64,000 nt of DNA from Taklimakanibacter albus (GTDB lineage Bacteria; Pseudomonadota; Alphaproteobacteria; Rhizobiales; Aestuariivirgaceae). Below are positions 12,885 to 28,119 of this stretch, in pieces (the stretch's first letter is position 1; every line of letters starts with the position of its first letter). The translations under genes were made by a program, and so were the position numbers. Where the stretch lies: contig NZ_JAENHL010000008.1 of NCBI RefSeq assembly GCF_016595235.1, positions 540,390-604,389 on the forward strand, read 5' to 3'. The notes below the pieces were generated by a model. It worked only from the letters and a program-made list of their open reading frames with translations, made no database searches and was not told where the DNA came from.

Positions 12885-14111
12885 ATGACCGATGCTTCTC
12901 CCCTTCTCTCTTCCACAGCGGTGCGCGAGGCGGCGCAGCGCACGCTGGCGGACGGGCTCGCGGGCAAGCTCGCGCACTGGTCCGTCGATCTCGACCAGTT
13001 GCCGAAGACCGCGCGCTTCGTTGCGCAAGTGACGCGTGAGAATTACCCGTCGCTGTCGGTGCCTTTCCATTCGCGCTGGCGGCATTTCGAGGCGGGCGGC
13101 ATCGACCGCTGGAAGCAGGTTCTGGCGCAACGTGCTTGGCCCAGCAAAGAAGCGCAAGCCCGCGCCGCGCTCGATCTCGCCATCGTCTCGGTGCTGCTCG
13201 ACGCCGGCAGCGGCGGGCGCTGGTCCTACACCGAGCCCAGCACCGGAAAACGCTTCTCCTCCTCCGAGGGATTGGGCGTCGCGAGCTTCGACCTCGTGGC
13301 CAGCGGCGCACTTTCGAACGATCCCAAAGATCCCTGGCGCGCCGACGCCGAGCGCCTCAAACGCTTCAGCAAGGCCGATCTCGAAAAGGCTTTCCAGGTC
13401 AGTGCCGACAATCCGCTGGCCGGCGTCGAGGGCCGGGTCGCCCTGCTCAACCGTCTGGGCGAGGCCTGCCAGGCCCAGACCTCTCATTTCGCCATCAGCG
13501 ATGCGCCGCGACCGGGGGGCATTGCCGACAGTCTCGCCGGCAGATCAGTGGCGGGACGGATCGAGGCGGCGCAGATCCTGCGCTGCCTCCTCGATACGCT
13601 GGGCGGCATCTGGCCGAGCCGGCTAACGCTCGGCGCGACGCCGCTCGGCGACACCTGGCGCTATGAGCGCTGGCAGAAACCGGGAGATGCGCTGTCAGGC
13701 CTCGTTCCTTTCCATAAGCTGTCGCAGTGGCTGACCTATTCGCTGATCGAGCCTTTGATCGTGCGCGGTCTGAAGGTCGGCGCCATCGACGGGCTCACCG
13801 GCCTCGCCGAATACCGCAATGGCGGCCTCTTCATCGACACGGAGATGCTGCGCCTCAAGCATCCGGCTGAGGCCGTCAAGCCGCAGGAAGTGAGCTCGGC
13901 CCTGATCGTCGAATGGCGCGCCTTGACCATTGCTCTGCTCGACCGGCTTCTGTCGCCGGTGCGCGACGAGCTCGGCATCAGCGCCGACCGTTTCCCGATC
14001 GCCTCGATGCTGGAGGGCGGCAGCTGGGCGGCGGGACGGCGCATCGCGCGCGAGAAGCGCTCCGATGGATCGCCGCCGCTCAATATCGTGAGCGACGGCA
14101 CGACGTTCTGA
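12885..14111 (+). CDS. DUF1688 family protein (Urc4/Urg3-like)
   Basis: A protein of 408 residues that matches the DUF1688 family over its full length, for example RENYPSLSVPFHSRWRHFE, the GAGSGGRW-like LDAGSGGRWSYTE segment and the GLTGLAEYRNGGLF stretch near the C-terminus. In yeasts URC4/URG3 is needed for the alternative (URC) uracil degradation route that runs through ribosylurea; the biochemical step is not settled. The usual partners, a URC1-like GTP cyclohydrolase II homologue and uracil phosphoribosyltransferase, are not in this window. Here it ends the LacI operon, 10 bp after the kinase, and suggests an N-ribosyl substrate (inference). Confidence 0.82.
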   Translation: MTDASPLLSSTAVREAAQRTLADGLAGKLAHWSVDLDQLPKTARFVAQVTRENYPSLSVPFHSRWRHFEAGGIDRWKQVLAQRAWPSKEAQARAALDLAIVSVLLDAGSGGRWSYTEPSTGKRFSSSEGLGVASFDLVASGALSNDPKDPWRADAERLKRFSKADLEKAFQVSADNPLAGVEGRVALLNRLGEACQAQTSHFAISDAPRPGGIADSLAGRSVAGRIEAAQILRCLLDTLGGIWPSRLTLGATPLGDTWRYERWQKPGDALSGLVPFHKLSQWLTYSLIEPLIVRGLKVGAIDGLTGLAEYRNGGLFIDTEMLRLKHPAEAVKPQEVSSALIVEWRALTIALLDRLLSPVRDELGISADRFPIASMLEGGSWAAGRRIAREKRSDGSPPLNIVSDGTTF

Positions 14112-14120
14112 TGACTCCGA

Positions 14121-15356
14121 TCAGACGATGACGGCGAGGTCATGCGGTATCGCCGACAGCATGGCGGCGCCGTCGGTATGGAAGGCCAGCGTGTCGATAA
14201 TGCAGCTCAGTCCCGACATGCGCGGCAGGAAGAAGATGCTTTCGAAATTCACCGCGGTGCCCGGGCTGAAGACAGCGTCGGTCTCGACCTCATATTCATA
14301 GACGAAGTTACCGACCCAGTCGGGCGGAAAGGCGATGCCCATCTCGTAACCGCCAATCCATGACTGCTCGCCCCACAGGCCGCATTCCTCGTAATATGCC
14401 TTCAAGGTCCGGGTCAGTTCCATGATCGGCAGGTTGGGCCTCAGGAGGTCGCGGCAGATGGCCATGGATTTCGCAGATTTGTCGAAGGCCTGGAGGACTT
14501 CGCGTGGCGGCTCGCCCACATAATAGGTGCGCCCGATGTTGGCGTGATAGCGGTGATAGACCCCGCTCAGATCGACATTCACCTGCTCGCCCGGCATGAT
14601 CTTCTTGCGCGAGGCGAGCGGATGGTTGCAATTGGCCTTGGGACCGGAGGCCACAGGCTGGGTTATCCCTGGATTCTCGCTGCCCGCCGCCGCCATCGCC
14701 CGGATGATCTCGCCATAGACCTCGAGCTCGGTGACACCCGGTCTAATCGCGGCGCGAGCCGCCTTGTGGCCGACATCGGCGAAATGCGCGGCCTGCGCGA
14801 TACAGGCCATTTCCTGCGGCGACTTCAGCCAGCGCACCTCGCGCAGGATGTCGCTGCCATCCATCACCTTCAGTCCGGCATTCTCGAAGGCCTGGACGAA
14901 GCGGCGGCTGACGGCCGGATTGGGGCGATAGGAATGGAATTCGAGTCCGACGCTGCCGGTGAGCCAGCCCGCCGCCCGCAACTCCTCGATGATGAAAGGC
15001 GTGCCGTCGCGGCGCTGGTGCATAGGGAAAATCCGCGTGTCGCGCGCCACGGTGACGTATCGGATCATCACCTGCTCGCTCAGCGTGTCGAACATGATGA
15101 AGTCGTCATGATCGACATGGACCGCTATGCCGCTGGTCGGCGGCCAGGCCTTGGGGCTCTGCGCCTGGTACCATTCCGCCTGATAGCCGCTGACATAACA
15201 TAGGCTTTCCGGCGCGGTCAGATAGAGGAGATCGATCTTGTCCTTGGCCATGCGCTGGCGGATGCGGACAAGGCGATCCCGGTATTCGCCGAGCGAGAAG
15301 CCGAGCTCGAGCGGCGGCGTGATCTGATGAAGCGCGATATCGCGGTTGATGCCCAT
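14121..15356 (-). CDS. M24 family protein without canonical metal ligands (creatinase / ectoine-hydrolase-like), paralogue 1
   Basis: A protein of 411 residues from ATG 15356, with an N-terminal creatinase domain (about 20-165) and a C-terminal pita-bread domain (about 175-411). Of the five ligands of true M24 aminopeptidases, the first Asp is kept (D262), the second is Asn (N273 in YHANIGRTY), the His is Tyr (Y337 in GGYEMGIAFPPDWVG), the first Glu is kept (E372) and the last Glu site reads D388. This resembles metal-free creatinase and ectoine hydrolase, which cleave non-peptide C-N bonds. It is the last gene of the minus-strand operon headed at 21087 and is convergent with the DUF1688 gene. 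Confidence 0.85.
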   Translation of the reverse strand: MGINRDIALHQITPPLELGFSLGEYRDRLVRIRQRMAKDKIDLLYLTAPESLCYVSGYQAEWYQAQSPKAWPPTSGIAVHVDHDDFIMFDTLSEQVMIRYVTVARDTRIFPMHQRRDGTPFIIEELRAAGWLTGSVGLEFHSYRPNPAVSRRFVQAFENAGLKVMDGSDILREVRWLKSPQEMACIAQAAHFADVGHKAARAAIRPGVTELEVYGEIIRAMAAAGSENPGITQPVASGPKANCNHPLASRKKIMPGEQVNVDLSGVYHRYHANIGRTYYVGEPPREVLQAFDKSAKSMAICRDLLRPNLPIMELTRTLKAYYEECGLWGEQSWIGGYEMGIAFPPDWVGNFVYEYEVETDAVFSPGTAVNFESIFFLPRMSGLSCIIDTLAFHTDGAAMLSAIPHDLAVIV

Positions 15357-15391
15357 TCGGGTCTCCTCTCCTATAGTGCGGGACTGTCCGA

Positions 15392-16888
15392 TCAGGCGGC
15401 GGTTTCGGGCTCGAGCGGAAAGATCGGCCGGCGCACCTTGGTGAAGGACAGCTGCGAATAGTCGGAGGTGCAGACCCCGACACCGGCACATTCGACGATC
15501 GCCTTGGCGAGCTTCTGGAAGCCGGCGCGATAGTGGATGCGGCTCTTGAGCATCACGAAACGTTTGCGCAACGGATCGATGCCGAGGCACAGCAGGCTCT
15601 CGATGTCGAAAGGCTCGACCTGGCGGGAAATGACGACGATCTCGACCTTGCCCGTGTCGATGATGACCGTGTTGCCCATATCGTGAAGCACGCCCCGCTC
15701 CATCGGACCGCGATTGCGGTATTTGCCGTCGCTGATCAGCTTCACCTTGCCGGTGACGGTCATTGGCTTGCCCTTGCGGTTGATGGAGGGCATATCGGCC
15801 TTGCCGCCGAGATTCAGCGTCACCGTCGCACCGATGCCGGCGGCGATCGCCTGCTTCACCGCCGCCTCGTCATAGATGGCGAAGACCGCCACATTGTCGA
15901 GCCCGGCGCGGAGAATGCCGTCCAGCACCATGATCGTGTCCATCGTGCCGCCCGAGGCGCAGTTGTCATAGTGGTCGAGCAGGATCACCGGTCCGTCACC
16001 GGGCTCGGCGGCGAGCTTTGCGGCGCGCTCAAGCGAGGCCTCAAGGGCTTCCAGCCGGTAGACGAAGGCCCGGCGCTCGGCCCAGGCCATGTCGAGCAAC
16101 TCGTCGCACAGCGCCCGCGCCTTGGCCGGATCGTTGTCCGTCACCACCACCGCGCTCAGGCCGGCATTGCTGACATCGGCATGCGGGAAGCCGGTAAAAA
16201 CAGTGGCGATGAGCGCCTCGCCCGATTCCTCCATCTGCCGGGCCCGCGCCTGGATCTCGCGGTTGGGCGAATCGCCGGTTCCCTGACGCATCACATGCGG
16301 CAGCATAGGCCGGTTGCCCCAGGCCATGGTCGGCGTGATCTCGCCCTTGATGCCCTTCAGCAGCGTGCGGCCGGCGCGCAGGCCGGTTTCGTAGTGGTCG
16401 ACATGAGGATAGGTCTGGTAGCCCGCGATCACCGTCGCATTGTCGACCATCGCCGGAAAGAGATTGGTGTGCATGTCGAGCGCCACAGCGATCGGGGTCG
16501 TCGGGGCGATCCGGCGCAGGCGCGCCAGCAGGCTCCCTTCGCCGTCCTCGCTGGTCTCGGTGACCATTGCGCCATGCAGGTCGAGCAGGATCGCATCGCA
16601 GCCCTGGCTGACCGCGGCGCAGATCCGATTGGCAATGTGCTCGAAAGCCTCCTTGGCCACCGGCCCGCTCGGATTGGCATTGGCGGCAATCGGCGTCACG
16701 ATCTCGGCCCCCTCCTTCTCGGCGAGATCGAGAAAAGCGGCGAGCGCCGAGCCCGTCCCCTTATAGGCGTCATAGGCGGCGCGCCCTTCATAAGGCTGGT
16801 CGGAACCGACCGCGAAACGCGCCAAAGGTGTGGGCACTGGCGAAAACGTATTGGTCTCGTGCTTCATGAGCGCCGCGACGATGCGCAT
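15392..16888 (-). CDS. M81 family metalloprotein (MlrC-like), second copy
   Basis: A protein of 498 residues from ATG 16888, with AGGAAAGGA upstream. The zinc ligands are predicted at D138 and H140 (LDMHTNL) and H162 (YPHVD). LLDLHGAMV at 101-109 is the family signature, and LLDHYDNCASGGTMD lies mid-protein. Unlike the flanking M24 proteins its metal site looks intact. It lies 35 bp upstream of M24 paralogue 1 and downstream of M24 paralogue 2, so it should act on the same imported compound or a breakdown product. Confidence 0.88.
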   Translation of the reverse strand: MRIVAALMKHETNTFSPVPTPLARFAVGSDQPYEGRAAYDAYKGTGSALAAFLDLAEKEGAEIVTPIAANANPSGPVAKEAFEHIANRICAAVSQGCDAILLDLHGAMVTETSEDGEGSLLARLRRIAPTTPIAVALDMHTNLFPAMVDNATVIAGYQTYPHVDHYETGLRAGRTLLKGIKGEITPTMAWGNRPMLPHVMRQGTGDSPNREIQARARQMEESGEALIATVFTGFPHADVSNAGLSAVVVTDNDPAKARALCDELLDMAWAERRAFVYRLEALEASLERAAKLAAEPGDGPVILLDHYDNCASGGTMDTIMVLDGILRAGLDNVAVFAIYDEAAVKQAIAAGIGATVTLNLGGKADMPSINRKGKPMTVTGKVKLISDGKYRNRGPMERGVLHDMGNTVIIDTGKVEIVVISRQVEPFDIESLLCLGIDPLRKRFVMLKSRIHYRAGFQKLAKAIVECAGVGVCTSDYSQLSFTKVRRPIFPLEPETAA

Positions 16889-16931
16889 AAGGGAGTTCCT
16901 TTCCTGCAAGTGGGCAATATTCGTCCGTGAC

Positions 16932-16953
16932 CGCCGCCCGGTGTCAGGCGGCG
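16932..16953 (-). terminator. intra-operon stem-loop between M24 and M81 genes
   Basis: CGCCGCC (16932-16938) and GGCGGCG (16947-16953) form a 7-bp GC stem with an 8-base loop in a 96-bp gap. There is no following U-tract in the minus direction. It may attenuate or protect the message; a true terminator is doubtful. Confidence 0.35.
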
Positions 16954-16984
16954 ACCTGTTCTCGATGAACCGACGCGGATTGGA

Positions 16985-18235
16985 TCAGGCCGGAAGCGTC
17001 AGGAGCTTTCTCGGCGTGCGTACGGGATTCTCAACTCCATCCTTCTTCCAGATCAGCGTGTCGATCAGAGCGGTGCTGAAGAGGATTTCAAGGTTGGTCA
17101 CCATGCCCGGCTCGAAGACCCGATCGAGGTAATCGGTGTCGAGCATGTTGAAATAGAAGTCGCCGACCCAGTCCGGCGGCAGGCTCAAGCCCAGCTCGTA
17201 GCCAAGCACCCAGCCCTCTTCATCGATGAGGCCGGAACGCTCGCAATAGGCCTTCAGCGAAGCGTTGACCTGGCGGACGGTCATGCCGCCGCTGAGCTCC
17301 TTGTCGGCATGATCGAAGGCGCCGGCTGCCTTCTCATAGAGATCGACCAGCTTGGCCGGCGGGTCGCCCAGATAATAGCCGCGCAGGATGTTGCCGTGAT
17401 AGCGATGCTTCACGCCGCACAGATCGGCGGAGAGAACCTGGCCGGCCTCGAGCTTGCGGGTCGTCGGCATCGAATGGCCGCTCGCCGCAACGCGGTCGCC
17501 CACCAACGGGCGTACATTGAAGACATGGATCAGCGCCGGCAGCTCGCCGCCTTCCGCCATCATGGCCCTCGTGACTTCGCCCATCACCTCGAGCTCGGTC
17601 TTGCCGACACGCGCATGTTCGAGAATTGCGTCATGGCCGATATCGCAGATGCGGAGCGCTTCCTTGACGACCGCTATCTCGGCGGGCGACTTGACTCGCC
17701 TCACCTCGCGGGTGATGGCGCTCGCATCGACGATGTCGCAGCCGCGCTCGCGGAAAGCGTCCTCGATCATGTGGCTGATGGCTCGGTTCGGCAGGTAGCT
17801 CCAGAACTCCATGCCGATCCTGCCCTTGAGCAGGCCCTCGCGCTGCAACTCGTCCATGATGAAGCGCAGGTTTATCTTACCCTCACGGTGCGGGTAGTAG
17901 CGGTTATCGGTGCTGATCGACATCTCATGAAGCAGCGGCAGCTCGGTCGGATGATCGAAATGGATCATCTTGTCGCTATGGGCGTGAATTGCCGTGCCAT
18001 AGACTTGCGGATAGCGCATCGGACCATTGGCCTTGTACCAGCCGCAATAGAAGCCATGCAGATAGGCGACGACTTCCGGCGTCGTCACATACAGAAGATC
18101 GATGCCTTCGCGGCGCATGAGCTTGCGCAAGCGCTCCTGGCGATCGCGATATTCGGCTTCGGTGAAGGCCAGCTGCTTGCCGGCATTCGGGTCCATCACA
18201 CCCGGGGTCATCCCTTTTGGCGCTATGTAGGACAT
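16985..18235 (-). CDS. M24 family protein without canonical metal ligands (creatinase / ectoine-hydrolase-like), paralogue 2
   Basis: A 416-residue protein with the same two-domain plan as the gene at 14121. The metal-site pattern is D271 kept, N282 for the second Asp (HGNILRGYY), Y346 for His (GYELGLSLPPDWVGD), E383 kept and D392 at the last Glu site. The shared N-terminal pattern LLYVTTPE, then GFYCGWY, then an AIHAHSDKMIHFD segment links the three paralogues and separates them from DoeA. It follows the second permease of the Pot-type importer by 34 bp and is probably in that operon. Confidence 0.85.
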   Translation of the reverse strand: MSYIAPKGMTPGVMDPNAGKQLAFTEAEYRDRQERLRKLMRREGIDLLYVTTPEVVAYLHGFYCGWYKANGPMRYPQVYGTAIHAHSDKMIHFDHPTELPLLHEMSISTDNRYYPHREGKINLRFIMDELQREGLLKGRIGMEFWSYLPNRAISHMIEDAFRERGCDIVDASAITREVRRVKSPAEIAVVKEALRICDIGHDAILEHARVGKTELEVMGEVTRAMMAEGGELPALIHVFNVRPLVGDRVAASGHSMPTTRKLEAGQVLSADLCGVKHRYHGNILRGYYLGDPPAKLVDLYEKAAGAFDHADKELSGGMTVRQVNASLKAYCERSGLIDEEGWVLGYELGLSLPPDWVGDFYFNMLDTDYLDRVFEPGMVTNLEILFSTALIDTLIWKKDGVENPVRTPRKLLTLPA

Positions 18236-18269
18236 GTCGAGCGTCTCTCCCTATTTTGATGTGAATACG

Positions 18270-19067
18270 TCAGTGAGGCTGGCGTCTGCGGACGAAAGCG
18301 AGGCAGCCCAGCAGGCAGATGGATATGACGATGAACAAGGTCGAGATGGCGGCGACAGTCGGATCGACCGCGTCGCGCAAGGAGACGAACATCTTGCGCG
18401 TGAGCAGCGTGTTGCCGCCGCCGGCGACGAACAGGCCGATAACGACCTCGTCCAGCGAGATGATGAAGGCGAACAGCGCCGCTGAGATCACCGAGATGCG
18501 CAGTTGCGGCAGGGTCACCACCAGGAAGGCGTTGAGGCGAGGGGCGCCGAGGCTCATCGCCGCCTGCTCCTGGCGGAAATCGAAGGTGCGGAAAGCCGCC
18601 TGCATCATGAGGACGACGAAGGGCAACGCCAGCAAAGTATGGGCAAGGACGATGCCGAACATCGTATTCACGATCTTGAGCCGGATATAGATATAGAACA
18701 CACCGATGGCGATTAGGATGCCGGGTACCAGCATCGGCAGGATCAGCACCAGCTGGATCCAGGGGGTCATGCGCGAGCGCATCGAATGAAGGCCATAGGC
18801 CGCCGCTATGCCGAGCGGCGTCGCCACCAGGACGGTGAGGATGGCCGCGGTGAGCGAGGCTCGGGTAGCCGCCAGCCACTCGGGGGAATTCCAATAATTC
18901 TCAAACCAACGGAGCGAATAGGCCTCGGGCGGAAAACGGAGATATTTCGAATCGGAGAAGGATACCGGAATGACGATGAAGATCGGCACGATCAGAAACA
19001 GGATGACCGCCGCCGTCACAACGAAGAGCCACCATCTTCTCCACATGGGCAGGTCGGCGCGGACCAT
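18270..19067 (-). CDS. ABC transporter permease, PotC type
   Basis: A protein of 265 residues starting at ATG 19067, one base after the stop of the preceding permease; a longer frame to 19172 would sit inside that gene. It has six membrane helices and the EAA-loop segment EQAAMSLGAPRLNAFLVVTLP. The family moves spermidine, putrescine or other small cationic or amine solutes, but many members have different substrates. Its ATPase partner is probably the gene at 22137. Confidence 0.9.
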   Translation of the reverse strand: MVRADLPMWRRWWLFVVTAAVILFLIVPIFIVIPVSFSDSKYLRFPPEAYSLRWFENYWNSPEWLAATRASLTAAILTVLVATPLGIAAAYGLHSMRSRMTPWIQLVLILPMLVPGILIAIGVFYIYIRLKIVNTMFGIVLAHTLLALPFVVLMMQAAFRTFDFRQEQAAMSLGAPRLNAFLVVTLPQLRISVISAALFAFIISLDEVVIGLFVAGGGNTLLTRKMFVSLRDAVDPTVAAISTLFIVISICLLGCLAFVRRRQPH

Positions 19068-19068
19068 C

Positions 19069-19992
19069 TCAGCGCACTCCCAGAAGGCGGTCGAGGTCGA
19101 AGAGACGATGACCGATATAGAGGATGGACAGCACGCAGAAGAGCAGCACGATGCCGAGCGCGCTCGCCGCACCCCAATCGAAATATTGCTGGACGTTGGA
19201 GGCGATCTTCATCGACACCATGGTGACCTTGCCGCCGCCGAGCACGGCCGGCGTCACGAAGAAGCCCAGGCACTGAACGAAGACGAGCACCGCGCCGGCC
19301 AGCACGCCCGGCAGCGACAGCGGCAGGAAAACGCGCAGGAAAGCCGACACCGGCGGCGCGCCGAGGCTCGAAGCGGCCTCGAGCAGGCGCCAGTCGAAGG
19401 AGCGGATCACCGCATAGACGGGCAGGATGAAGAACGGCAGCATGATATGGACCATGCCGATGATGCTGCCGGTCTCGTTGAACAAAAGACTCACCGGCTG
19501 GTCGACGAGGCCGAGCCACATCAGCGTCTGATTGACCGGGCCGGCATCTGTGAGGAGCACGAGCCAGGCATAAGAGCGCACGAGAACCGACGTCCAGAAG
19601 GGAATGATGATCAGGGCGATGAAGGCCATTGCCAGCCGGCCGGGAAGCTGGGCGATGAGATAGGCGACGGGATAGCCGAGCACCGCGCAGATCACCGTCA
19701 CGATGCCGCTGATCTTCAGCGTCGTGAACAGGATCTTGGAATAGGACGAGTAGGTGATCATCCGTTCGTAATGACCGAGGCCGAACTGTCCCTTCTCGAC
19801 GAAGGAGAGGGCGAAGAGCCAGATGACCGGCAGGACGACGAACACGAAAGTCAAGGAGAAGGCCGGAAAGGTCAGGAGCGCCAGATTGCGCGCCTCGCGC
19901 CGCGCATTGCCTGCCAGTGCCTCGCGGTTGAGCGATGTCGCCGAGACGTCACCGCTCGGATAATCGAGGCTCTGAGGCGTTGCGAGAGACAT
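19069..19992 (-). CDS. ABC transporter permease, PotB type
   Basis: A protein of 307 residues from ATG 19992 (AGGA upstream), with a cytoplasmic N-terminus and six helices. The EAA loop is near LLEAASSLGAPPVSAFLRVF. It pairs with the PotC-type permease as a heterodimer. A strong stem-loop lies between it and the binding-protein gene upstream. Confidence 0.9.
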   Translation of the reverse strand: MSLATPQSLDYPSGDVSATSLNREALAGNARREARNLALLTFPAFSLTFVFVVLPVIWLFALSFVEKGQFGLGHYERMITYSSYSKILFTTLKISGIVTVICAVLGYPVAYLIAQLPGRLAMAFIALIIIPFWTSVLVRSYAWLVLLTDAGPVNQTLMWLGLVDQPVSLLFNETGSIIGMVHIMLPFFILPVYAVIRSFDWRLLEAASSLGAPPVSAFLRVFLPLSLPGVLAGAVLVFVQCLGFFVTPAVLGGGKVTMVSMKIASNVQQYFDWGAASALGIVLLFCVLSILYIGHRLFDLDRLLGVR

Positions 19993-20020
19993 GGGTCGTC
20001 CTGAGCGCTTGTGGCCGGAA

Positions 20021-20045
20021 GCCGGCGCCCCGATGGAGCGCCGGC
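20021..20045 (-). terminator. stem-loop after the binding-protein gene
   Basis: GCCGGCGC (20021-20028) and GCGCCGGC (20038-20045) form a perfect 8-bp GC stem with a 9-base loop between the binding-protein stop and the permease start. Such structures commonly let the binding protein be made in excess over the membrane parts. Confidence 0.55.
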
Positions 20046-20058
20046 CTGTCATGTTCAG

Positions 20059-21087
20059 TTATTCGGCCAGGAACTGGTCGAAGCGTTCCTTCGCTTCGGC
20101 ACCGTGCTTCGCCCACCATTCGGCACTGGTGACGATCTGCTTGGGATAGTTCTCGGCGGAAGTCGGCAGCAGTGGCGCCAGATCGGCCGGGATCTTGCCG
20201 GTCTCCTCGATCTTGGTATTCGCGGCGCCGTAATTCGACAGGAGCGTCATGTCGGCTTGGTGCTCCTTCTTGACGAATTCGGCCAGGACCTTCATCACCA
20301 GATCCTTCTTCGGCGTGCCCTTCACGATCGACCAGCAGCCGAAGTCGATGAGCCCTTCATTGAAGGTATAGGCGAGCGACCCGCCGTCCGAAATGACCGA
20401 CTGGGCACGGGCGTTGAACATGCCGATCATGTCGATACCGCCCTCGCGAACGAGCTGTTGCGACTCAGCGCCCGATGCCCACCACGCCTTGATATGGGGC
20501 TTGATCTTGGCGAGGCTGGCAAAGGCCCGATCGAGATCGAGAGGATAGAGCTTGTCCTTCGGCACACCGTCGGCGAGGAGCGCCGCTTCGAGCACGTAGA
20601 AGGCATTGCGATACAGCGAGCGGGTACCGGGGAATTTTTCGACATTCCAGAAATCAGCCCAGTTCTGGGGCGGATTGGGAACCTTCTTCGGATTCCAGGC
20701 GATCACCATCGAATAAATGGTGCTGCCGACGTAATAGTCGCTGAAGGTGCCCGGGGCGAGCTCGGAATTGTCGATGACCGAATAATCGAGCTTCTCATAG
20801 AGCCCTTCGGCACCGCCGAGCGCGCAGGTGGAGGCGCCGAATTCGACGAGGTCGGTGGTCACGGCACCGGACTGAACCTGGACCCTGACCGGCGTGTCGA
20901 CGTCGTTCGTCTCGACACTCCACTTGATACCGAGCTGCTTGCCAACCGGGTCCAGATAAGCCTTCTGGATGTTCTCGAGATAGATACCGCCGGCGGTGAT
21001 GTAATTGATGGTTTCCTCGGCCTGGGCCCGTAGCGTAAGGCTTGTAGAGACCAGCACGGCCGCAACCAGGGTGCAAAGGCGCTTCAT
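20059..21087 (-). CDS. ABC transporter periplasmic binding protein, PotD/PotF-like
   Basis: A protein of 342 residues with an Sec-type signal peptide (MKRLCTLVAAVLVSTSLTL, cleavage near AQAEE about residue 23). The fold is SBP_bac_8-like: LVEFGASTCALGGAEGLYEKLDYSVID resembles polyamine-type binding proteins, and KVPNPPQNWADFWNVEKFPGTRSL is a typical middle segment. It is the first gene of the minus operon and sits behind the IclR palindrome. The ligand is unknown, but the neighbouring DAO oxidase and creatinase-like proteins favour a small amine, guanidino or cyclic amino compound (inference). Confidence 0.9.
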   Translation of the reverse strand: MKRLCTLVAAVLVSTSLTLRAQAEETINYITAGGIYLENIQKAYLDPVGKQLGIKWSVETNDVDTPVRVQVQSGAVTTDLVEFGASTCALGGAEGLYEKLDYSVIDNSELAPGTFSDYYVGSTIYSMVIAWNPKKVPNPPQNWADFWNVEKFPGTRSLYRNAFYVLEAALLADGVPKDKLYPLDLDRAFASLAKIKPHIKAWWASGAESQQLVREGGIDMIGMFNARAQSVISDGGSLAYTFNEGLIDFGCWSIVKGTPKKDLVMKVLAEFVKKEHQADMTLLSNYGAANTKIEETGKIPADLAPLLPTSAENYPKQIVTSAEWWAKHGAEAKERFDQFLAE

Positions 21088-21144
21088 GAGAATTCACTCC
21101 CCTACATGGACGTTTATTCGTTTAGCTTGCACTTGCCATTTTTT

Positions 21145-21172
21145 CGCTATGCGAATATTAATTCGCAAAGCG
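21145..21172. promoter_or_regulatory. probable IclR operator in the divergent gap
   Basis: A 28-bp inverted repeat with arms CGCTATGCGAAT (21145-21156) and ATTCGCAAAGCG (21161-21172), one mismatch, separated by ATTA. The left part TTCGCTATGCGAA (21143-21155) recurs exactly, in reverse complement, before the oxidase gene at 25810-25822. It lies between the IclR gene and the binding-protein gene, placed to control both. Confidence 0.72.
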
Positions 21173-21200
21173 CAAATGAGACTAACAAGAGGATCCGGGC

Positions 21201-21971
21201 ATGTCTAGTGGGGGTGGACGGGACGAACGGGTGAATTCACTCGTCCGCGGGCTGGAGGTGCTGAAAGCCTTCGGCCGCTATCACGAGCCCATGACCATCT
21301 CGGAAGTCGCAACCGAAACCGGCCTGACGCCGGCCTCGGCACGCCGGATGCTGCTGACGCTCACCGATCTCGGCTATGTCGAATTGCGCGGAAAGCGATT
21401 CCGGGTGGGCCCGAAAGTGCTCGACCTCGGCTACTCCTACATGTCCTCGATGCCGATCTGGCAGATCGTCCAGCCGACCGTCGAGCGCATCAGCGAGAAA
21501 TTCAGCGTGTCGAGCAGCGCTTCGGTGCTCGACGGCTGCGACATCGTCTATGCGGTGCGCGCCAACAACCGTCAGGCCAGCTCTGTGCTGGTCAGCACCG
21601 GGACGCGGCAGCCCGCCCATGTGACGTCGATGGGCCGGGTCCTGCTCGCCTTCACCGAGCCTGAGCGGCGCGAAACCATCCTGTCGCAGATCCATTTCAG
21701 CGCCTACACGTCGCATTCGGTGATGGATATCGATCAACTGCGCCTGATCCTCGAGCAGGTGCGCGGCCAGAACTTTTCCATCGTCGATGAGGAAATGGAA
21801 TTCGGCCTGCGCGCCATCGCGGTGCCGATCCGCAACAAGCGCGGCGAAGTGGTGGCCGCCATCAATGCGGCCGGCTCCAACCGAGCGCTCGACCTCGATT
21901 ATCTGAAGAACACGGTGCTGCCGGCGATGTTCGAAGCCGCGAACATGATCAAGGCCAATCTGCCCGCCTAG
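21201..21971 (+). CDS. IclR family transcriptional regulator
   Basis: A protein of 256 residues. An N-terminal winged helix (about 10-70; LKAFGRYHEPMTISEVATET, then LTPASARRMLLTLTDLGYV) is followed by the IclR effector domain, with GRVLLAF and the C-terminal VPIRNKRGEVVAAINAAG segment. It resembles PcaR/PobR-type regulators of aromatic or amine catabolism. It is divergent from the Pot-type operon and convergent with the second operon, and the shared palindrome indicates control of both. Its effector is probably a catabolic intermediate. Confidence 0.92.
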   Translation: MSSGGGRDERVNSLVRGLEVLKAFGRYHEPMTISEVATETGLTPASARRMLLTLTDLGYVELRGKRFRVGPKVLDLGYSYMSSMPIWQIVQPTVERISEKFSVSSSASVLDGCDIVYAVRANNRQASSVLVSTGTRQPAHVTSMGRVLLAFTEPERRETILSQIHFSAYTSHSVMDIDQLRLILEQVRGQNFSIVDEEMEFGLRAIAVPIRNKRGEVVAAINAAGSNRALDLDYLKNTVLPAMFEAANMIKANLPA

Positions 21972-22018
21972 CGCGTGATCAGGAAAAGTGGATTCCGGTT
22001 TTCCGTCCGATCACGCGC
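21971..22018. repeat. Rhizobiales-type intergenic palindrome
   Basis: Outer arms GCGCGTGATC (21971-21980) and GATCACGCGC (22009-22018) enclose inner arms GGAAAA and TTTTCC. This layout resembles a palindrome widespread between genes in rhizobial genomes. It overlaps the last base of the IclR stop codon and may act as a terminator for IclR. Confidence 0.65.
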
Positions 22019-22033
22019 TAAATATGAGATTTC

Positions 22034-22081
22034 GATCACGTTTATCACCTTAGGTCGACACGACCTAAAGTGATCGTGATC
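22034..22081. terminator. bidirectional stem-loop between convergent iclR-type and potA-type genes
   Basis: The arm beginning GATCACG (22034) pairs with the arm ending CGTGATC (22081). TTAGGTCG and CGACCTAA form the inner stem around the loop ACA, with a short bulge. It lies between convergent genes and probably stops transcription from both sides. Confidence 0.55.
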
Positions 22082-22101
22082 TAGGCGCAACGCTAGCAAG
22101 C

Positions 22102-22114
22102 CCTCATGCTGAGG
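22102..22114. repeat. fragment of the CCTCA-type intergenic repeat
   Basis: CCTCATGCTGAGG is a 13-base palindromic block nearly identical to the left end of the larger repeat at 63265-63375. It looks like a remnant of the same repeat family. Confidence 0.45.
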
Positions 22115-22136
22115 GGCCGACCTCATCGCCCTGAAG

Positions 22137-23213
22137 TCAGGCAGCGCCCTTCACCACGATCGTGTCGGCCGGATGAATGCCGAGCGAGATGTGCTCGCCG
22201 GCGACGGGCAGATGCCGGCGGCTGCCCTCGTTGGTGGCGCGCCGGATCGAGACCGTCTCGCCTGTCGGCAAGGCCACCAGAACCAGCACATTCTCGCCCT
22301 GATAGACGACATCCTTCACCTGGCCGCTGATGACATTCAGCTCCGAAGATTTCGGCACATCGCGCACGATCTCGAATTTTTCCGGCCGCAGAACCAGAAA
22401 GCCCTCGCCCGCGCCGGCGCCCGGGGCTTTACGCAAACGGATCGTCGTATCGCCCATGCGCGCCGTGCTGTCACCTACCATGTCGACGCGCAGCAATTGC
22501 GAATCGCCCAGGAAGCTCGCGACGAAAAGGTTGCCCGGCTCCTCATATATCTGCGCCGGCGTTCCGATCTGCTGGATGGCGCCATTATTCATGACGGCGA
22601 TTCGGTCGGACATGGTGAGAGCCTCGCGCTGATCATGCGTGACATAGATCGTCGTCATGCCGAGGCGCCGCTGCAATTCACGGATCTCGATCTGCATCTG
22701 CTCGCGCAGCTTCTTGTCGAGGGCCGAAAGTGGCTCATCCATGAGGAGGATGCGCGGATTGAAGACGAGGGCGCGGGCAAGCGCGACCCGCTGCTTCTGG
22801 CCACCCGACAATTCGTCGATGCGGCGGCTCTCATAACCGTTGAGGCGAACGAGATCGAGCGCTCCCGCCACCTTTCTCCTCGTCTCGCTCTTGTCGGCCT
22901 TGCGGTAACGCAAGGGGAAGCCGACATTGCTGGCCACCGTCATATGCGGGAACAGCGCGTAGTTCTGGAAGACCAGCCCGATGTCGCGCTTATAGGGCGG
23001 CATGGTGATGACCTCGCGTCCGGTGAAACGGATGCTGCCGTGATCGGGCTGCACGAAGCCCGCGAGTATCATCAGAAGCGTCGTCTTGCCCGAGCCGGAC
23101 GGCCCCAGGATAGACACGAACTCCCCGGCGCCGACATCCAGATTGATGCGATCCAACGCCACCACGGGGCCGTAGGTCTTCCTGATTTCCTGGATCGTGA
23201 TCGTTTCAGCCAT
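22137..23213 (-). CDS. ABC transporter ATP-binding protein, PotA type
   Basis: A protein of 358 residues from ATG 23213 (GGGGAGA upstream). Walker A GPSGSGKTT is at 37-45, followed by the Q-loop VFQNYALFPHM, the signature LSGGQKQR and Walker B LLMDEP, then a C-terminal TOBE/OB domain with LRPEKFEI. It is the only unpaired PotA-type ATPase near the binding protein and permeases at 18270-21087, and the shared IclR palindrome supports that it energises them although it lies in another operon. It follows M24 paralogue 3 by 12 bp. Confidence 0.92.
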   Translation of the reverse strand: MAETITIQEIRKTYGPVVALDRINLDVGAGEFVSILGPSGSGKTTLLMILAGFVQPDHGSIRFTGREVITMPPYKRDIGLVFQNYALFPHMTVASNVGFPLRYRKADKSETRRKVAGALDLVRLNGYESRRIDELSGGQKQRVALARALVFNPRILLMDEPLSALDKKLREQMQIEIRELQRRLGMTTIYVTHDQREALTMSDRIAVMNNGAIQQIGTPAQIYEEPGNLFVASFLGDSQLLRVDMVGDSTARMGDTTIRLRKAPGAGAGEGFLVLRPEKFEIVRDVPKSSELNVISGQVKDVVYQGENVLVLVALPTGETVSIRRATNEGSRRHLPVAGEHISLGIHPADTIVVKGAA

Positions 23214-23225
23214 GTCTCTCCCCAC

Positions 23226-24476
23226 TCACACTATCGTTATACCGCGATCGAGCCTGGACAATATCCGCAAGCCCCCCTCCTCCATCACCAGCGTGTCCAC
23301 ATTCTGCGTCCCGAAGCCTCCCGGCCAGCCCTCCGGCACGTCCAGCACATTCTCGAAATTGACCACGGTGCCCACCGCGAAGTCGGCGCGCTCGAAGCAG
23401 CGGCCATTGAGATAGGTATGCCCGACCCAGTCGGGCGGAATGGCGATGCCCAGATCGTAGCCGCCGATGAACCAGCCGTAACGGGTGAGCCCGGCCGAAT
23501 CCAGATACTGCATCGCGACTTCCGCTGCCTTCTCCATCGGATCGCCCGGCCTGACCGCGGCGACCACATGATCAAAGCTCACGGCAGCGCGCGTCACGAG
23601 ATCGCGCCAGCGCGGATCGGGTTCGCCGGCCGAAAATGTACGCGCGATATTGGCATGGTAGCGATAGAAGGACCCGCACAGATCGACAGTGAAGAGATCT
23701 CCCTTGCCGATCTTGCGCCGGGTCGGCAGCGGATGCTGGACGCGCGTATTCGGTCCGGAAATGACCGACGTCCGGATGGCCGGCTCCTCACCGTCGAGCC
23801 GGCTCATCGCATAATGCGCGATCCCCTGGACCTCAATCTCCGACATGCCGGGCTGGAAGTCTCGCGAAATCGCCGCCAGAGCGGCGTCGGCGATGAAGGC
23901 TGCGTTATCGAGCCGGGCGATCTCGGCCGGCGACTTCACCAGCCTGACGCGGTCGACAAGCCATGAGCCGTCAATAGTCCGCGCTCCCGCGGCGGTCATG
24001 CGCTCATCGATGTAGCGCAAAGGAATACCGCCCGGCGCCGTCGACCAATGCTCTAGGCCCGCCGAGCCGCGCAACCACCCTTCCTCACGCAGCGTATCGA
24101 TGACATCGTCGGCGGAGTTGCGGAATATCCATCCGTCTCTCTCGACATCGCGAAAGCGCCGAAAGAAGGCAGCCTCGCCGACTTGCGCATGATGCGCGGA
24201 AACAAGGGTGCGATGGGTGATGTCGTCGAAGAAGATGAGCCGGTCGCTGGCCGCATGCACGGCCACGCCGGTGGGCGTCGACCTCCTATACCAGCGGCTG
24301 TCATACCCGGTGAGATAAGTGATGTTCGGTGGCGAGGTGACATAAAGCATGTCCAGGTCCGCGCGCTGCATCTCGGCACGTACACGCCTCGCCCGTTCGT
24401 GATATTCCGCGAGATCGAAGGCCAATGGCCAATCCCGCGGCGGCCCGAAGGCCAACTCTGTCGCCAGCACCGCCAT
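23226..24476 (-). CDS. M24 family protein without canonical metal ligands (creatinase / ectoine-hydrolase-like), paralogue 3
   Basis: A 416-residue protein with the same altered site as the other two copies: D265 kept, N276 for the second Asp (YHANIARTF), Y340 for His (GGYDLGIAIPPDWVG), E375 kept and D394 at the last Glu site. It lies between the DAO-type oxidase and the PotA-type ATPase with gaps of 5 and 12 bp, so all three form one operon. That each IclR-controlled operon carries its own copies suggests successive hydrolytic steps or a hetero-oligomer (inference). Confidence 0.85.
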   Translation of the reverse strand: MAVLATELAFGPPRDWPLAFDLAEYHERARRVRAEMQRADLDMLYVTSPPNITYLTGYDSRWYRRSTPTGVAVHAASDRLIFFDDITHRTLVSAHHAQVGEAAFFRRFRDVERDGWIFRNSADDVIDTLREEGWLRGSAGLEHWSTAPGGIPLRYIDERMTAAGARTIDGSWLVDRVRLVKSPAEIARLDNAAFIADAALAAISRDFQPGMSEIEVQGIAHYAMSRLDGEEPAIRTSVISGPNTRVQHPLPTRRKIGKGDLFTVDLCGSFYRYHANIARTFSAGEPDPRWRDLVTRAAVSFDHVVAAVRPGDPMEKAAEVAMQYLDSAGLTRYGWFIGGYDLGIAIPPDWVGHTYLNGRCFERADFAVGTVVNFENVLDVPEGWPGGFGTQNVDTLVMEEGGLRILSRLDRGITIV

Positions 24477-24481
24477 GCCGG

Positions 24482-25795
24482 TCAGGCGAGACCGCGCAGG
24501 CGGTCCATGGCCAGTTCCTGCAGCGTGCGCAGCCCGACCACCGGCTTCCAGAATGCGTGGAAACGGAATGGTTTTATGGTGGAGACCGGGAGCTCGAGCG
24601 TATCTTCGGCGGCGCCGAGGAGCCGCCGCGCCACGATGCGGCCCATCATCGTCGCCATGGCGATGCCGCGGCCATTATAACCCAGCGCCGCGACGAGGCC
24701 GGGCGCCGGCTCGTGCAGATGGGGAAAATGATCTTCGGTGACCGCCACCTGACCGTTCCAGAAATAGCTCCAGCCAATACCGCGCAGATCGGGATAAAGC
24801 GCTTCGGCGCAGCGGATCAGATATCGGAAGGTCGACTTGTCGCTACCGTCCCGCTGCCGGAGCCCGGGGCCGCCCATCAGCAAGCGATTCTCCCGGTCGA
24901 GACGAAAATAGAGAACGCGCCACGAGCTCTCATAGGCGACGTGGCGGCCGGGCAGAATCCGCCGCGCCATGGCTTCCGGCAGCGGATCGGTCGCGGCGAT
25001 GGCGCTGTAGATCGGGACCACGCTCTCGCGGAGATGCGGCCACAGGCCGTCAGTATAACCATTGGTGGCAAGCACGACCTTGCGGGCGCGGACCGTGCCG
25101 GATCCGGCGACGAAGCGCCAGAAGTCCCCTTCCCGTTTCAATCCGGAAACGGGTGAGCTCGAGAAGATTTGCCCCTTCGACTTCACCACCGCGGCGGCGA
25201 GGCCGCGGGCATAGGCCAGCGGATTGAGCATGCCGCCGCGCGGATCGAGAAGCCCCGAGGGATAGCGGTCGGTGCCCAGGAGATCGGCAAGCTTGGCGCG
25301 GTCGAGATAATCGAGGCGAATGCCGCGTGCCGACCAGTCGGTGATCGCCGTGTCGATGACGGGTCTTTCGGCATCCGTGCGCACGACCCGGATCGATCCC
25401 GTTTGGGCGGCGTCGCAGTCGATGTCATGACGGCGGACGAGGTCGAACACATATTGCGGTGCCTCTCCCGACAGGCGCGCCAGGCGCTCGCCCCGCTCGG
25501 CACCGAAGTAACCTGCGACATCGGCCGGTTCGCGTTTGAGGCCCGGATTGACCTGCCCGCCATTACGACCCGAAGCACCCCAGCCGGGTTCATGCGCATC
25601 GAAAACCGCGACTTCGGCCCCGTCTTCGAGAAGATGGAGGGCGCTGGACAGGCCGGTAAAGCCGGCGCCGATCACGGCTATGTCGACGTCAAGCTCGGTG
25701 GTGAGGGCCGGATAGCGGACTTCCGGCGTGACTGCTCGATAGAGGCTGCGCGGCAATGCGGATGAGGAATTGTCGGGCAGTGTATTTAGGGTCAT
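24482..25795 (-). CDS. FAD-dependent oxidoreductase, DAO family (PuuB/OrdL-like)
   Basis: A protein of 437 residues from ATG 25795; longer frames start inside the operator. The dinucleotide-binding motif VIGAGFTGLS is at 41-50 and GWGASGRNGGQ at 71-81, the latter typical of gamma-glutamylputrescine oxidase (PuuB)-like flavoproteins. GYNGRGIAMATMMG is the C-terminal FAD segment. These enzymes oxidise secondary or primary amines such as sarcosine, gamma-glutamylputrescine or N-methyl amino acids, giving an aldehyde or imine and hydrogen peroxide. It heads the operon with M24 paralogue 3 and the PotA-type ATPase. Confidence 0.9.
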   Translation of the reverse strand: MTLNTLPDNSSSALPRSLYRAVTPEVRYPALTTELDVDIAVIGAGFTGLSSALHLLEDGAEVAVFDAHEPGWGASGRNGGQVNPGLKREPADVAGYFGAERGERLARLSGEAPQYVFDLVRRHDIDCDAAQTGSIRVVRTDAERPVIDTAITDWSARGIRLDYLDRAKLADLLGTDRYPSGLLDPRGGMLNPLAYARGLAAAVVKSKGQIFSSSPVSGLKREGDFWRFVAGSGTVRARKVVLATNGYTDGLWPHLRESVVPIYSAIAATDPLPEAMARRILPGRHVAYESSWRVLYFRLDRENRLLMGGPGLRQRDGSDKSTFRYLIRCAEALYPDLRGIGWSYFWNGQVAVTEDHFPHLHEPAPGLVAALGYNGRGIAMATMMGRIVARRLLGAAEDTLELPVSTIKPFRFHAFWKPVVGLRTLQELAMDRLRGLA

Positions 25796-25804
25796 CTTCA
25801 TTCC

Positions 25805-25827
25805 AATAATTCGCATAGCGAATAATT
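25805..25827. promoter_or_regulatory. second IclR-type operator, before the DAO oxidase operon
   Basis: A palindrome centred on TTCGCATAGCGAA (25810-25822), flanked by AATAA and TAATT. The core is the exact reverse complement of TTCGCTATGCGAA at 21143-21155. A weaker related element, TTCCGCAATACGAA, follows at 25828-25841. It lies 10 bp upstream of the oxidase start codon. Confidence 0.72.
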
Positions 25828-25966
25828 TTCCGCAATACGAAGATAAATATGTAAGCCAATGATTGTCAATGAAGTCGTCGGCCTGGGCGAAGCAGGGCGA
25901 AAGCCTTCCACACATTTATATAGGCCGCGGTCGATGTCGCTTGACCCCCAAGCTTTTCCTCCATAT

Positions 25967-27247: not shown

Positions 27248-27293
27248 GGCGCCTTACTTTGCCTCTTCGCGCGGTGGCGGCATCCCTGCCGCC
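27244..27293 (+). terminator. palindrome and stem-loop after the binding-protein gene
   Basis: GTAAGGCGCCTTAC (27244-27257) is a perfect palindrome over the stop codon, and GGCGGC/GCCGCC (27276-27281 and 27288-27293) forms a second GC stem with a 6-base loop. Both lie before the SIS gene and may reduce expression downstream of the binding protein. Confidence 0.5.
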
Positions 27294-27321
27294 GCGCCTT
27301 CCCTCTTGCACGGATGACGCC

Positions 27322-28119
27322 ATGCCGAACACTTATCTCGCCAAAGCCATCGCTCTCCTCCAGGAAGTGGAGGCGACGCAAACCACCCAGATCGCCACGG
27401 GCGCACAATGGATCGCCGATGCGATCGCAGCCGACGGCATGGCGCATTTCTTCGGCGCCGGCCATTCGCATATGGCGCTCGAGGAAGTGTTTCCCCGCAA
27501 TGGCGGGCTGATCGGCCTGCATCCGCTCTCCGAGCTGGCGCTCTCCTATTACACACCGGTGGTCGGCAATTCCGGTATCTATCAGATGCGCTTCTTCCAG
27601 TCGGTCGAGGGCCTGGGCGAGATCATCTGGAAGAACTACCGCTTCAAGAAGACCGACTGCTTCGTCGTCTACACCAATACCGGCGTCACCAAGGTCGCGC
27701 TCGACATCGCCACCTTCGCCAAGGCGGAAGGCATGCGTGTCATCGCCGTCACCTCGCTCAAACATGCGGCCGCCACCGGCACCGAGCACAAGGGCGGCAA
27801 GCGCCTGCATGAGATCGCCGATCTCGTCATCGACAATTGCTCGGTGGTGGGCGACGCCATGGTCGAGATCCCCGGTCTCGAGGACAAAGCGGGTGCGGGG
27901 TCGAGCATCACCAGCATCGCCATCACCAATGCGCTCGCGACCGAGGCGGCGCTCGAGCTTTCGCGACGTGGATTGAAACCCATGGTGCTGCCCAGCCCCT
28001 ACTTCGAAGGCACGCCCGAGGGCAAGGCCAGGCGGGCGCGCGCCGAGAAGCGCTGGGACGAATGCATGGACGAATATTCGCGCCGTTATGCCGGCATGTT
28101 CCTGCGCGGCAAGGCCTGA
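27322..28119 (+). CDS. SIS domain protein (phosphosugar-binding, UPF0309-like)
   Basis: A protein of 265 residues from ATG 27322. It has the SIS fold signals FFGAGHSHMALEE and VVYTNTGVTKVALD, with a later VIAVTSLKHA strand. SIS domains bind sugar phosphates and often isomerise amino-sugar or keto-sugar phosphates. It lies 9 bp before the FAD oxidoreductase and inside a sugar importer operon, so it may isomerise the phosphorylated product of the FGGY kinase at 33670 (inference). Confidence 0.85.
   Translation: MPNTYLAKAIALLQEVEATQTTQIATGAQWIADAIAADGMAHFFGAGHSHMALEEVFPRNGGLIGLHPLSELALSYYTPVVGNSGIYQMRFFQSVEGLGEIIWKNYRFKKTDCFVVYTNTGVTKVALDIATFAKAEGMRVIAVTSLKHAAATGTEHKGGKRLHEIADLVIDNCSVVGDAMVEIPGLEDKAGAGSSITSIAITNALATEAALELSRRGLKPMVLPSPYFEGTPEGKARRARAEKRWDECMDEYSRRYAGMFLRGKA

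Follow-up and report, generated by a model that had tools for sequence, protein, structure and literature searches.

Gene organization of the locus

The stretch of DNA analysed here (the window) comprises 64,000 nucleotides of contig NZ_JAENHL010000008.1 of Taklimakanibacter albus, and the system under study is a cluster of ten genes encoding three proteins of the M24 family, an M81 hydrolase, an ABC importer, a DAO-family oxidase and an IclR-family regulator. Nine structural genes are arranged in two operons on the minus strand (14121-25801), split by the single plus-strand gene of the IclR regulator (21201..21971; PF01614/PF09339). The first operon encodes, in order from its promoter, a periplasmic binding protein of the SBP_bac_8 type (20059..21087; PF13416), a PotB-like permease (19069..20052; PF00528), a PotC-like permease (18270..19067; PF00528) and the products designated M24B (16985..18235), M81 (MlrC-like, 15392..16888; PF07364 312.4 bits, PF07171 173.7 bits) and M24C (14121..15356; PF00557 83.8 bits, PF01321). 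The second operon encodes a FAD oxidase of the DAO family (24482..25801; PF01266 239 bits), M24A (23226..24476) and an ATPase of the PotA subfamily (22137..23225). The ABC importer is complete, yet its components are divided between both operons.

All ten genes are intact open reading frames whose Pfam matches exceed the curated cut-offs, and the content of nine structural genes in two operons around one IclR gene, as given in a preliminary description of this DNA made from the letters alone, holds for every gene. Reading frames in this GC-rich DNA were chosen with a codon-usage picker, since plain picking favoured shadows on the opposite strand. The start of the DAO gene was placed at about 25795-25801, and not at 25827 or 25915, because an operator (25810-25841) precedes the gene.

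Tandem operators and regulation of the two operons

Each operon is preceded by two tandem copies of a 13-bp palindrome, TTCGYNNNRCGAA, whose start positions differ by 19 bp. Operator 1 (TTCGCTATGCGAA n6 TTCGCAAAGCGCA, 21143..21174, palindromes starting at 21143 and 21162) lies between the genes of the binding protein and of IclR, and operator 2 (TTCGCATAGCGAA n6 TCCGCAATACGAA, 25810..25841, starts at 25810 and 25829) lies in front of the DAO gene. The same tandem pair was found at both homologous places (13624/13643 and 18219/18238) in L032, a 20-kb stretch of genome G072 from the same order. When the 32-bp pattern was scanned with up to five mismatches allowed in 20 positions, the window and L032 each gave exactly two sites, every one with 0-1 mismatches; L033, L034, L036 and L040, stretches without a gene labelled as this IclR, gave none. 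Markov-model simulations (60) gave 0.03 sites per 64 kb at 2 mismatches and none with fewer, figures that flatter the pattern since it was derived from the found sites themselves; even so, chance would hardly produce one and the same spacing at four sites of two genomes. It is the tandem form, rather than the single palindrome, that counts: single palindromes with at most one mismatch reach no significance there (7 found vs 6.7 expected in the window), and the two exact ones are the two operator sites.

The occurrence of the tandem palindrome upstream of both operons, its repetition with the same 19-bp period in a related genome and its absence from the rest of either stretch argue for one regulon, a prediction from sequence that we regard as solid and that bears out the single IclR regulon proposed in the preliminary description. 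The IclR protein itself would be the protein that binds the palindromes. Its score against the PcaR/PcaU/PobR subfamily model TIGR02431 (276.8) falls just under the cut-off of 284.75. Operator 2 sits just downstream of a sigma-70-like -35/-10 pair (10/12 matches, 25869-25840, minus strand) and thus suits a repressor; promoter-like matches overall are at chance level (4 found vs 3.4 expected). IclR proteins are known to act as repressors, and repression is the probable mode of control. Between the convergent IclR and ATPase genes, nested inverted repeats with GATCACG... arms (21972-22137) resemble a dispersed repeat or a terminator.

Metal site, phylogeny and fold of the M24 proteins

M24A, M24B and M24C all match PF01321 and PF00557 above cut-off, which places them in the M24/creatinase fold superfamily; the pita-bread fold comes from the model of M24B only. 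In a comparison with solved prolidases and in an alignment of 75 M24 proteins, the five metal-ligand positions that read D, D, H, E, E in metal-dependent M24 metallopeptidases begin with D, N, Y, E in all three proteins and end with V in M24A or I in M24B and M24C, so that none of the three carries the ligand set of a metal-dependent enzyme. The metallo-type rows of the alignment (nine, seven of them from the genome studied here) keep D (H in one), D, H, E and E. The loss of the metal site is solid, and the term metal-less, applied earlier to these proteins, is true for all three.

The IQ-TREE tree was built from 75 of the 76 distinct M24 proteins (135 hits before removal of duplicates; one cut-off copy was dropped). 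M24A, M24B and M24C, which share 34-38% identity pairwise, fall within a single clade of 47 rows (support 100/99), in agreement with their earlier assignment to one subfamily. Three subclades are distinguished in it: A (10 rows, support 94/93, just below the starred level), B (20 rows) and C (17 rows, support 96/98), and each of them is common to other families of the class. A recent tandem triplication of one M24 gene is thereby ruled out, and the position of the three proteins in separate subclades means that they are old paralogues brought together. Throughout the 47 rows the ligand positions hold D (47/47), N (45/47, the other two D), Y (47/47), the first E (47/47) and I or V (47/47). The first ligand position is Glu in all 19 other metal-less rows, including the DoeA-annotated protein of L115, and Asp is invariant in the subfamily. 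Residues W62, D265 and N373 (M24A numbering) are likewise absent from all 19 of those rows. The subfamily has 24 invariant columns, with His, Asp, Trp and Arg among the residues concerned; no more than two columns combine conservation of at least 90% inside each subclade with a difference between subclades, and the subclades therefore have most of their strictly kept residues in common. The invariant His (248 in M24A, 254 in M24B, 247 in M24C) is a likely proton shuttle by analogy with creatinase.

M24 and M81 are named peptidase families, and one plasmid-borne relative of M81 adjoins genes of two P1 peptidases and of an ABC importer with the layout of a peptide transporter. Peptide scavenging, with the M24 proteins as dipeptidases with unusual sites and M81 (or M20, its counterpart in relatives) as peptidases cleaving small modified peptides after import, is nevertheless very unlikely, given that three of the five metal ligands are altered in the 47 rows (two rows keep Asp at the second) and that the importer is of the Pot type and not Dpp/Opp.

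The AlphaFold2 model of M24B (26 sequences; predicted local distance difference test score 91.5, predicted template modelling score 0.90) was compared with solved structures by Foldseek. DoeA/EutD entries took ranks 1-5 and creatinase entries ranks 6-9 and 13, with prolidases from rank 10; the template modelling (TM) score, normalized to the query, was 0.73-0.81 for 6twj (DoeA), 7yto (creatinase) and 1chm. Ectoine hydrolases are also the nearest family models for all three proteins, but the curated DoeA cut-offs are not reached: the scores are 151.8 (M24C), 103.1 and 96.9 of 575 with one model and 103.2, 91.2 and 86.5 of 613 with the other, about a quarter or less of what is required. In the tree the DoeA of L115 falls outside the 47-row clade and M24A, M24B and M24C do not group with it. 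Ligands and fold matches thus support the description of these proteins as creatinase-like, and the metal-free M24A, M24B and M24C belong to a well-supported subfamily of their own among creatinase/DoeA-like proteins, apart from DoeA.

The doe/eut clusters are among the nearest known systems in that they combine a metal-less pita-bread M24 protein with an importer and an amide hydrolase. DoeA is reported to be an M24 protein similar to creatinase, the enzyme which splits creatine into sarcosine and urea (PMC3187862), and to precede DoeB in ectoine breakdown (PMC5924519). A variant of this pathway might operate here on ectoine or a close cyclic amidine, an M24 protein opening the ring, M81 or M20 replacing the DoeB deacetylase and the DAO oxidase replacing the transaminase; the fold and family-model matches and the hydrolase-then-deacylase order would fit. 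We find this quite improbable: the M24 proteins score 87-152 bits against cut-offs of 575-613, the subfamily differs from the L115 DoeA and the 18 other metal-less rows by Asp in place of Glu at the first ligand position and by its W and N markers, and the cluster has another importer, another regulator and another redox enzyme. The ten genes include no DoeB or DoeD, with no Pfam match to a DoeB-type deacetylase, an aminotransferase or an Ehu-type binding protein.

Creatinase entries come second among the fold matches. The action of creatinase is followed by a sarcosine oxidase step, and the present cluster likewise pairs metal-free M24 C-N hydrolases with a DAO-family oxidase. The differences are an identity of about 20% in the M24B fold match and the presence here of three M24 proteins, an M81 protein and a Pot-type importer.

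Importer, DAO oxidase and M81 hydrolase

The importer resembles PotABCD in that the ATPase passes the PotA subfamily model TIGR01187 (385.8, cut-off 355.6) and the permeases are nearest to PotB (190.7 of 348) and PotC (129.6 of 326), both below cut-off. The earlier label of a Pot-type importer thus suits the ATPase. The binding protein has no NCBIfam match, its closest structures are 4i1d (9e-72) and MotA (5l9g, 3e-58), followed by the polyamine-named 4eq7 (4e-48) and a γ-aminobutyrate (GABA) sensor (7e-47), and the classical PotD entry 1pot is matched at only 9e-4. Weaker matches are the agropine binder 6hly (5e-35), the mannopine binder 5l9s (8e-33) and the spermidine/putrescine-named 8jv1 (5e-26).

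Two alternatives arise from these relatives. MotA, which binds opine and Amadori compounds, and the agropine and mannopine binders might indicate the import of opine-like compounds or fructosyl-amino acids, with the DAO protein as an oxidase of the amadoriase type and the M24, M81 and M20 proteins hydrolysing lactam, lactone or amide bonds of the amino-acid part. Amadoriase activity occurs among DAO-family enzymes, the M20 protein of relatives resembles carboxypeptidase G2, a gene with a sugar-isomerase domain lies at 27259-28119, and sugar-type transporters, recognised only by reading the translations, stand on both sides of the cluster. Such a route is unlikely, as the regulon has no sugar gene and none is seen among the genes labelled in the L032 version, the DAO protein is nearest to L-pipecolate oxidase, and the Rieske, PhyH and agmatinase partners found elsewhere do not suit sugars. 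The second alternative is an ordinary polyamine importer that feeds a γ-glutamylputrescine- or acetylpolyamine-type route, in which the DAO protein would act as an oxidase on the amine and acyl groups would be taken off by the hydrolases. It could draw on the PotA assignment, on 4eq7 and 8jv1 and on the HDAC-type genes beside M24C relatives in L036, L038 and L040. Its probability is low, since the binding protein is closest to other chains and no glutamyl-polyamine synthetase, aldehyde dehydrogenase or HDAC domain was found by Pfam among the ten genes. The established polyamine routes are not known to involve two or three M24 proteins.

A search of the DAO protein against solved structures at 1e-10 gave no match. 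The M81 protein belongs to the M81 (MlrC) family by both Pfam domains, each above cut-off, and aligns end to end with MlrC (7ylq, 4e-49) with the DxH and PHxD stretches, presumably the M81 metal ligands, kept; at 178.8 of 999 it is far below the MlrC exception cut-off. The window carries a second M81 gene (706-2193; 34% identity to the M81 of the regulon), and seven M81 matches are present in the whole genome.

Conserved core and distribution in related genomes

M24B was searched for in 199 relatives at 1e-60, and eight genomes, its own included, were positive. Among four other members of the genus one had a 40% match and three none; with M24B in so few congeners, the cluster is patchy. In L032 of G072, the genes of M24B (74%), both permeases, the binding protein, IclR, the ATPase, M24A (67%) and DAO stand in the same order as in the window, with identities across the core of 56-74%, so the layout is not due to chance. 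M81 and M24C are not present in this stretch, and the slot after M24B that they occupy in the window is taken in L032 by an M20 hydrolase (8368-9411). Two other genomes of the genus of G072 (G158 and G122) have an ATPase-permeases-binding protein-M24B-DAO set (33-55% identity to that of the window) with a single M24, a divergent GntR gene and an M20 sharing 60% identity with the G072 enzyme. Related M20s (50-52%) immediately precede M24B in L065, lie close to M24A in L098 and are 7 kb away from M24B in L059. No relative of the G072 M20 was found at 1e-30 in the genome of the window (6/11 genomes positive), although its matches to the M20 family as a whole number 29. The M20 protein of relatives passes NF005678 and has carboxypeptidase G2 (1cg2, 6e-29) as its nearest solved structure; we read M81 as a stand-in for M20, another metal-dependent amide hydrolase. 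A regular partnership of M81 with M24 proteins was considered and ruled out, the examined M81 relatives (on plasmids and in G158) being located elsewhere.

These comparisons do not support the proposal of the preliminary description that three M24 enzymes act in successive steps of one pathway: the syntenic cluster of G072 has two M24 proteins and an M20, and those of G158 and G122 have one. They also raise the alternative that only one or two of the M24 proteins are pathway enzymes and that M24C and M81 entered the operon later as an unrelated insertion. The absence of both from L032 and the location of the M81 relatives point in this direction, but M24C and M81 share the strand of their neighbours, with gaps of 96 and 35 bp, and occupy the M20 slot, and M24C belongs to the same subfamily as M24A and M24B; we judge such an insertion somewhat unlikely.

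The preliminary description had also suggested looking for co-occurrence of the three M24 types. Among 385 genomes of the class (limits 1e-70 for M24A, 1e-100 for M24B and 1e-120 for M24C), M24A was found in 7, M24B in 5 and M24C in 7. At least one type is present in eight genomes and all three in five, the genome of the window included. For the other four (G360, G457, G533 and G577) the best matches are on separate contigs or some hundreds of kb from one another. The three types thus tend to occur in the same genomes, and of those five only the genome studied here has them clustered. In plasmids searched at 1e-30 no relative of M24A was found and M24B had one relative (27.7% identity). A scan of named genome contigs with a single protein yielded one locus.

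No description of the cluster or of the M24 subfamily was found in a full-text search of openly licensed literature, which agrees with the earlier view of an undescribed system. The layout of three M24 genes in one cluster, presented earlier as unfamiliar, likewise has no published description that we could find; two M24 genes per cluster are not unprecedented, as paired M24s occur in L042, L101-L103 and L118. Putative ectoine clusters in Thermodesulfobacteriota are reported to have two eutD homologs as a rule (PMC13188858).

Gene neighbourhoods of the M24 subfamily

M24B and its near kin are present in 12/16 genomes of family f86 at 1e-100. A PhyH-type dioxygenase gene adjoins M24B in 8/20 contexts of subclade B, in three of them together with genes of an acyl-CoA dehydrogenase and a CoA transferase. 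A conserved ADH / PhyH-M24B-acyl-CoA dehydrogenase-CoA transferase cluster of this family is found at L070:4991-10718 and at the matching places in L071 and L072.

Both in L042 and in L101, M24C relatives are accompanied by three Rieske oxygenases, which are nearest to the glycine betaine monooxygenase GbcA and far below its cut-off (best 336 of 670 bits in L042; best 162 in L101). In the stretches L042:583-17517, L101:1-14502 and L074:59-9214, M24 genes are found alongside those of an amidase and of several Rieske oxygenases of the GbcA-like kind, and L042 and L101 also have a Pot-type importer; each stretch looks like an uncharacterised cluster for N-methyl or betaine catabolism. In L102 (6592-10058) and L103 (9288-12758), two different metal-less M24s, one of them an M24C relative, form an operon with an agmatinase (190.5 and 190.7 bits; TIGR01230 cut-off 174.3), and a guanidino product is likely there.

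The HDAC-type genes mentioned above include those of a paralogous locus in the genome of the window (L040:812-12197) and of L036 from the same genus, where a Pot-type importer, an HDAC-family protein, an enoyl-CoA hydratase, an acyl-CoA synthetase-type protein, an M24C-type protein and a LysR regulator are encoded. On plasmid pShin-02 of Shinella sp. HZN7 (L113:4074-13554) a more distant metal-less M24 stands with a Pot-like importer, a class II histone deacetylase, an aldehyde dehydrogenase, a FAD oxidoreductase and a cupin.

Proposed pathway

The gene content, the loss of metal ligands, the subfamily, the fold, the common operators, the conserved core and the exchange of M20 and M81 were computed directly. 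Reasoning from them, we infer creatinase/ectoine-hydrolase-like catabolism with a subfamily, an importer and an oxidase of its own. We give even chances to the proposal that the regulon imports, hydrolyses and oxidatively trims an N-alkyl, guanidino or acyl amino compound. The binding protein, the permeases and the ATPase would take up a nitrogen compound, zwitterionic or cationic, that resembles an amino acid and is N-alkylated, N-acylated or of the guanidino/amidino kind. As metal-free enzymes, M24A, M24B and M24C would hydrolyse non-peptide C-N bonds in the manner of creatinase and ectoine hydrolase, M81 (M20 in relatives) would cleave a further amide bond, and the DAO flavoprotein would oxidise the resulting secondary amine to an imine, which would yield an amine and an aldehyde or oxo acid. 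IclR, by binding the tandem TTCGYNNNRCGAA palindromes in both promoters, would switch the two operons jointly. Rieske, PhyH, agmatinase and HDAC-type enzymes act on N-methyl, guanidino or acyl-amine groups, and it is because these partner families handle such groups that the substrate is placed among N-alkyl, guanidino or acyl amino compounds. The preliminary description had already proposed import and breakdown of an amine; the importer, hydrolases and oxidase for it are present, while the substrate class, like the order of the steps, is what we infer, and three successive M24 steps are unsupported.

Several observations weigh against this proposal, in which all evidence on the substrate is indirect. 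The named ligands of the binding protein's relatives include opines, GABA and polyamines, and the importer may therefore not carry a guanidino compound. The DAO protein passes no NCBIfam cut-off and reaches 337.2 of 600 for the nearest, L-pipecolate oxidase AmaA (NF050086). Three, five and three relatives of the M20 are held by G072, G122 and G158, so this hydrolase is not tied to M24; two 64%-identical M20s (L142 and L143) have no labelled M24 nearby, and neither has the M81 of G158 (47%), which lies beside a branched-chain-type importer and a GntR gene. A labelled DAO, Rieske or PhyH gene was found within four genes in 11/20 contexts of subclade B, 4/17 of C (5 with a 31-bit PhyH hit in L107) and 4/10 of A; the labels derive from few reference proteins, so that misses are likely, and those in B include the window and L032, whose DAO gene lies in the sister operon. 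In the genome of the window, 4/18 M24 loci lie within 4 kb of an M20, M81 or HDAC gene (random mean 1.0, P=0.016) and 5/18 within 8 kb (P=0.028), which is a mild effect; in G122, the other genome tested, the counts are 0/11 and 1/11, with no enrichment. Random placements were confined to the four own contigs carrying hits, and one of the 29 own M20 rows (C7:1811015) and one of 25 in G122 (C1:2071917), both short matches beside a listed M20, were left out. A general linkage of M24 and deacylase genes is thus weak.

More tentatively, and with some doubt, we suggest that M24A, M24B and M24C may represent a new class of metal-free C-N hydrolases with a D-N-Y-E-I/V signature, working together (one after another or in mixed dimers) on N-methylated guanidino or betaine-like compounds. 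Exchangeable partners would then provide dealkylation (DAO, GbcA-like Rieske, PhyH) and a second hydrolysis (M20, M81, HDAC-type, agmatinase).

Distant metal-less relatives are named 'Xaa-Pro peptidase family protein' in public plasmid records, a function that is unlikely given the loss of the metal site. Such M24 proteins can be sorted and tested directly by means of the marker residues, the operator and the M20-for-M81 exchange, and these would show the nitrogen compound used. The genome of the window has 24 M24 matches at 1e-3, metallo-type included, and up to 42 loose first-look candidates were seen in another genome; with so many M24 genes per genome in the class, the number of unknown C-N hydrolases would therefore be large. 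First-look candidates in the genomes of family f86 number up to 37 each.

Other features of the window

Convergent with the M24C gene, the region 12885-14111 and upstream carries a URC4-like gene beside genes of a PfkB-like kinase (recognised by reading) and a phosphotriesterase-like protein. A set of URC4/urg3, GTP cyclohydrolase II and upp is seen in the annotated stretch L110.

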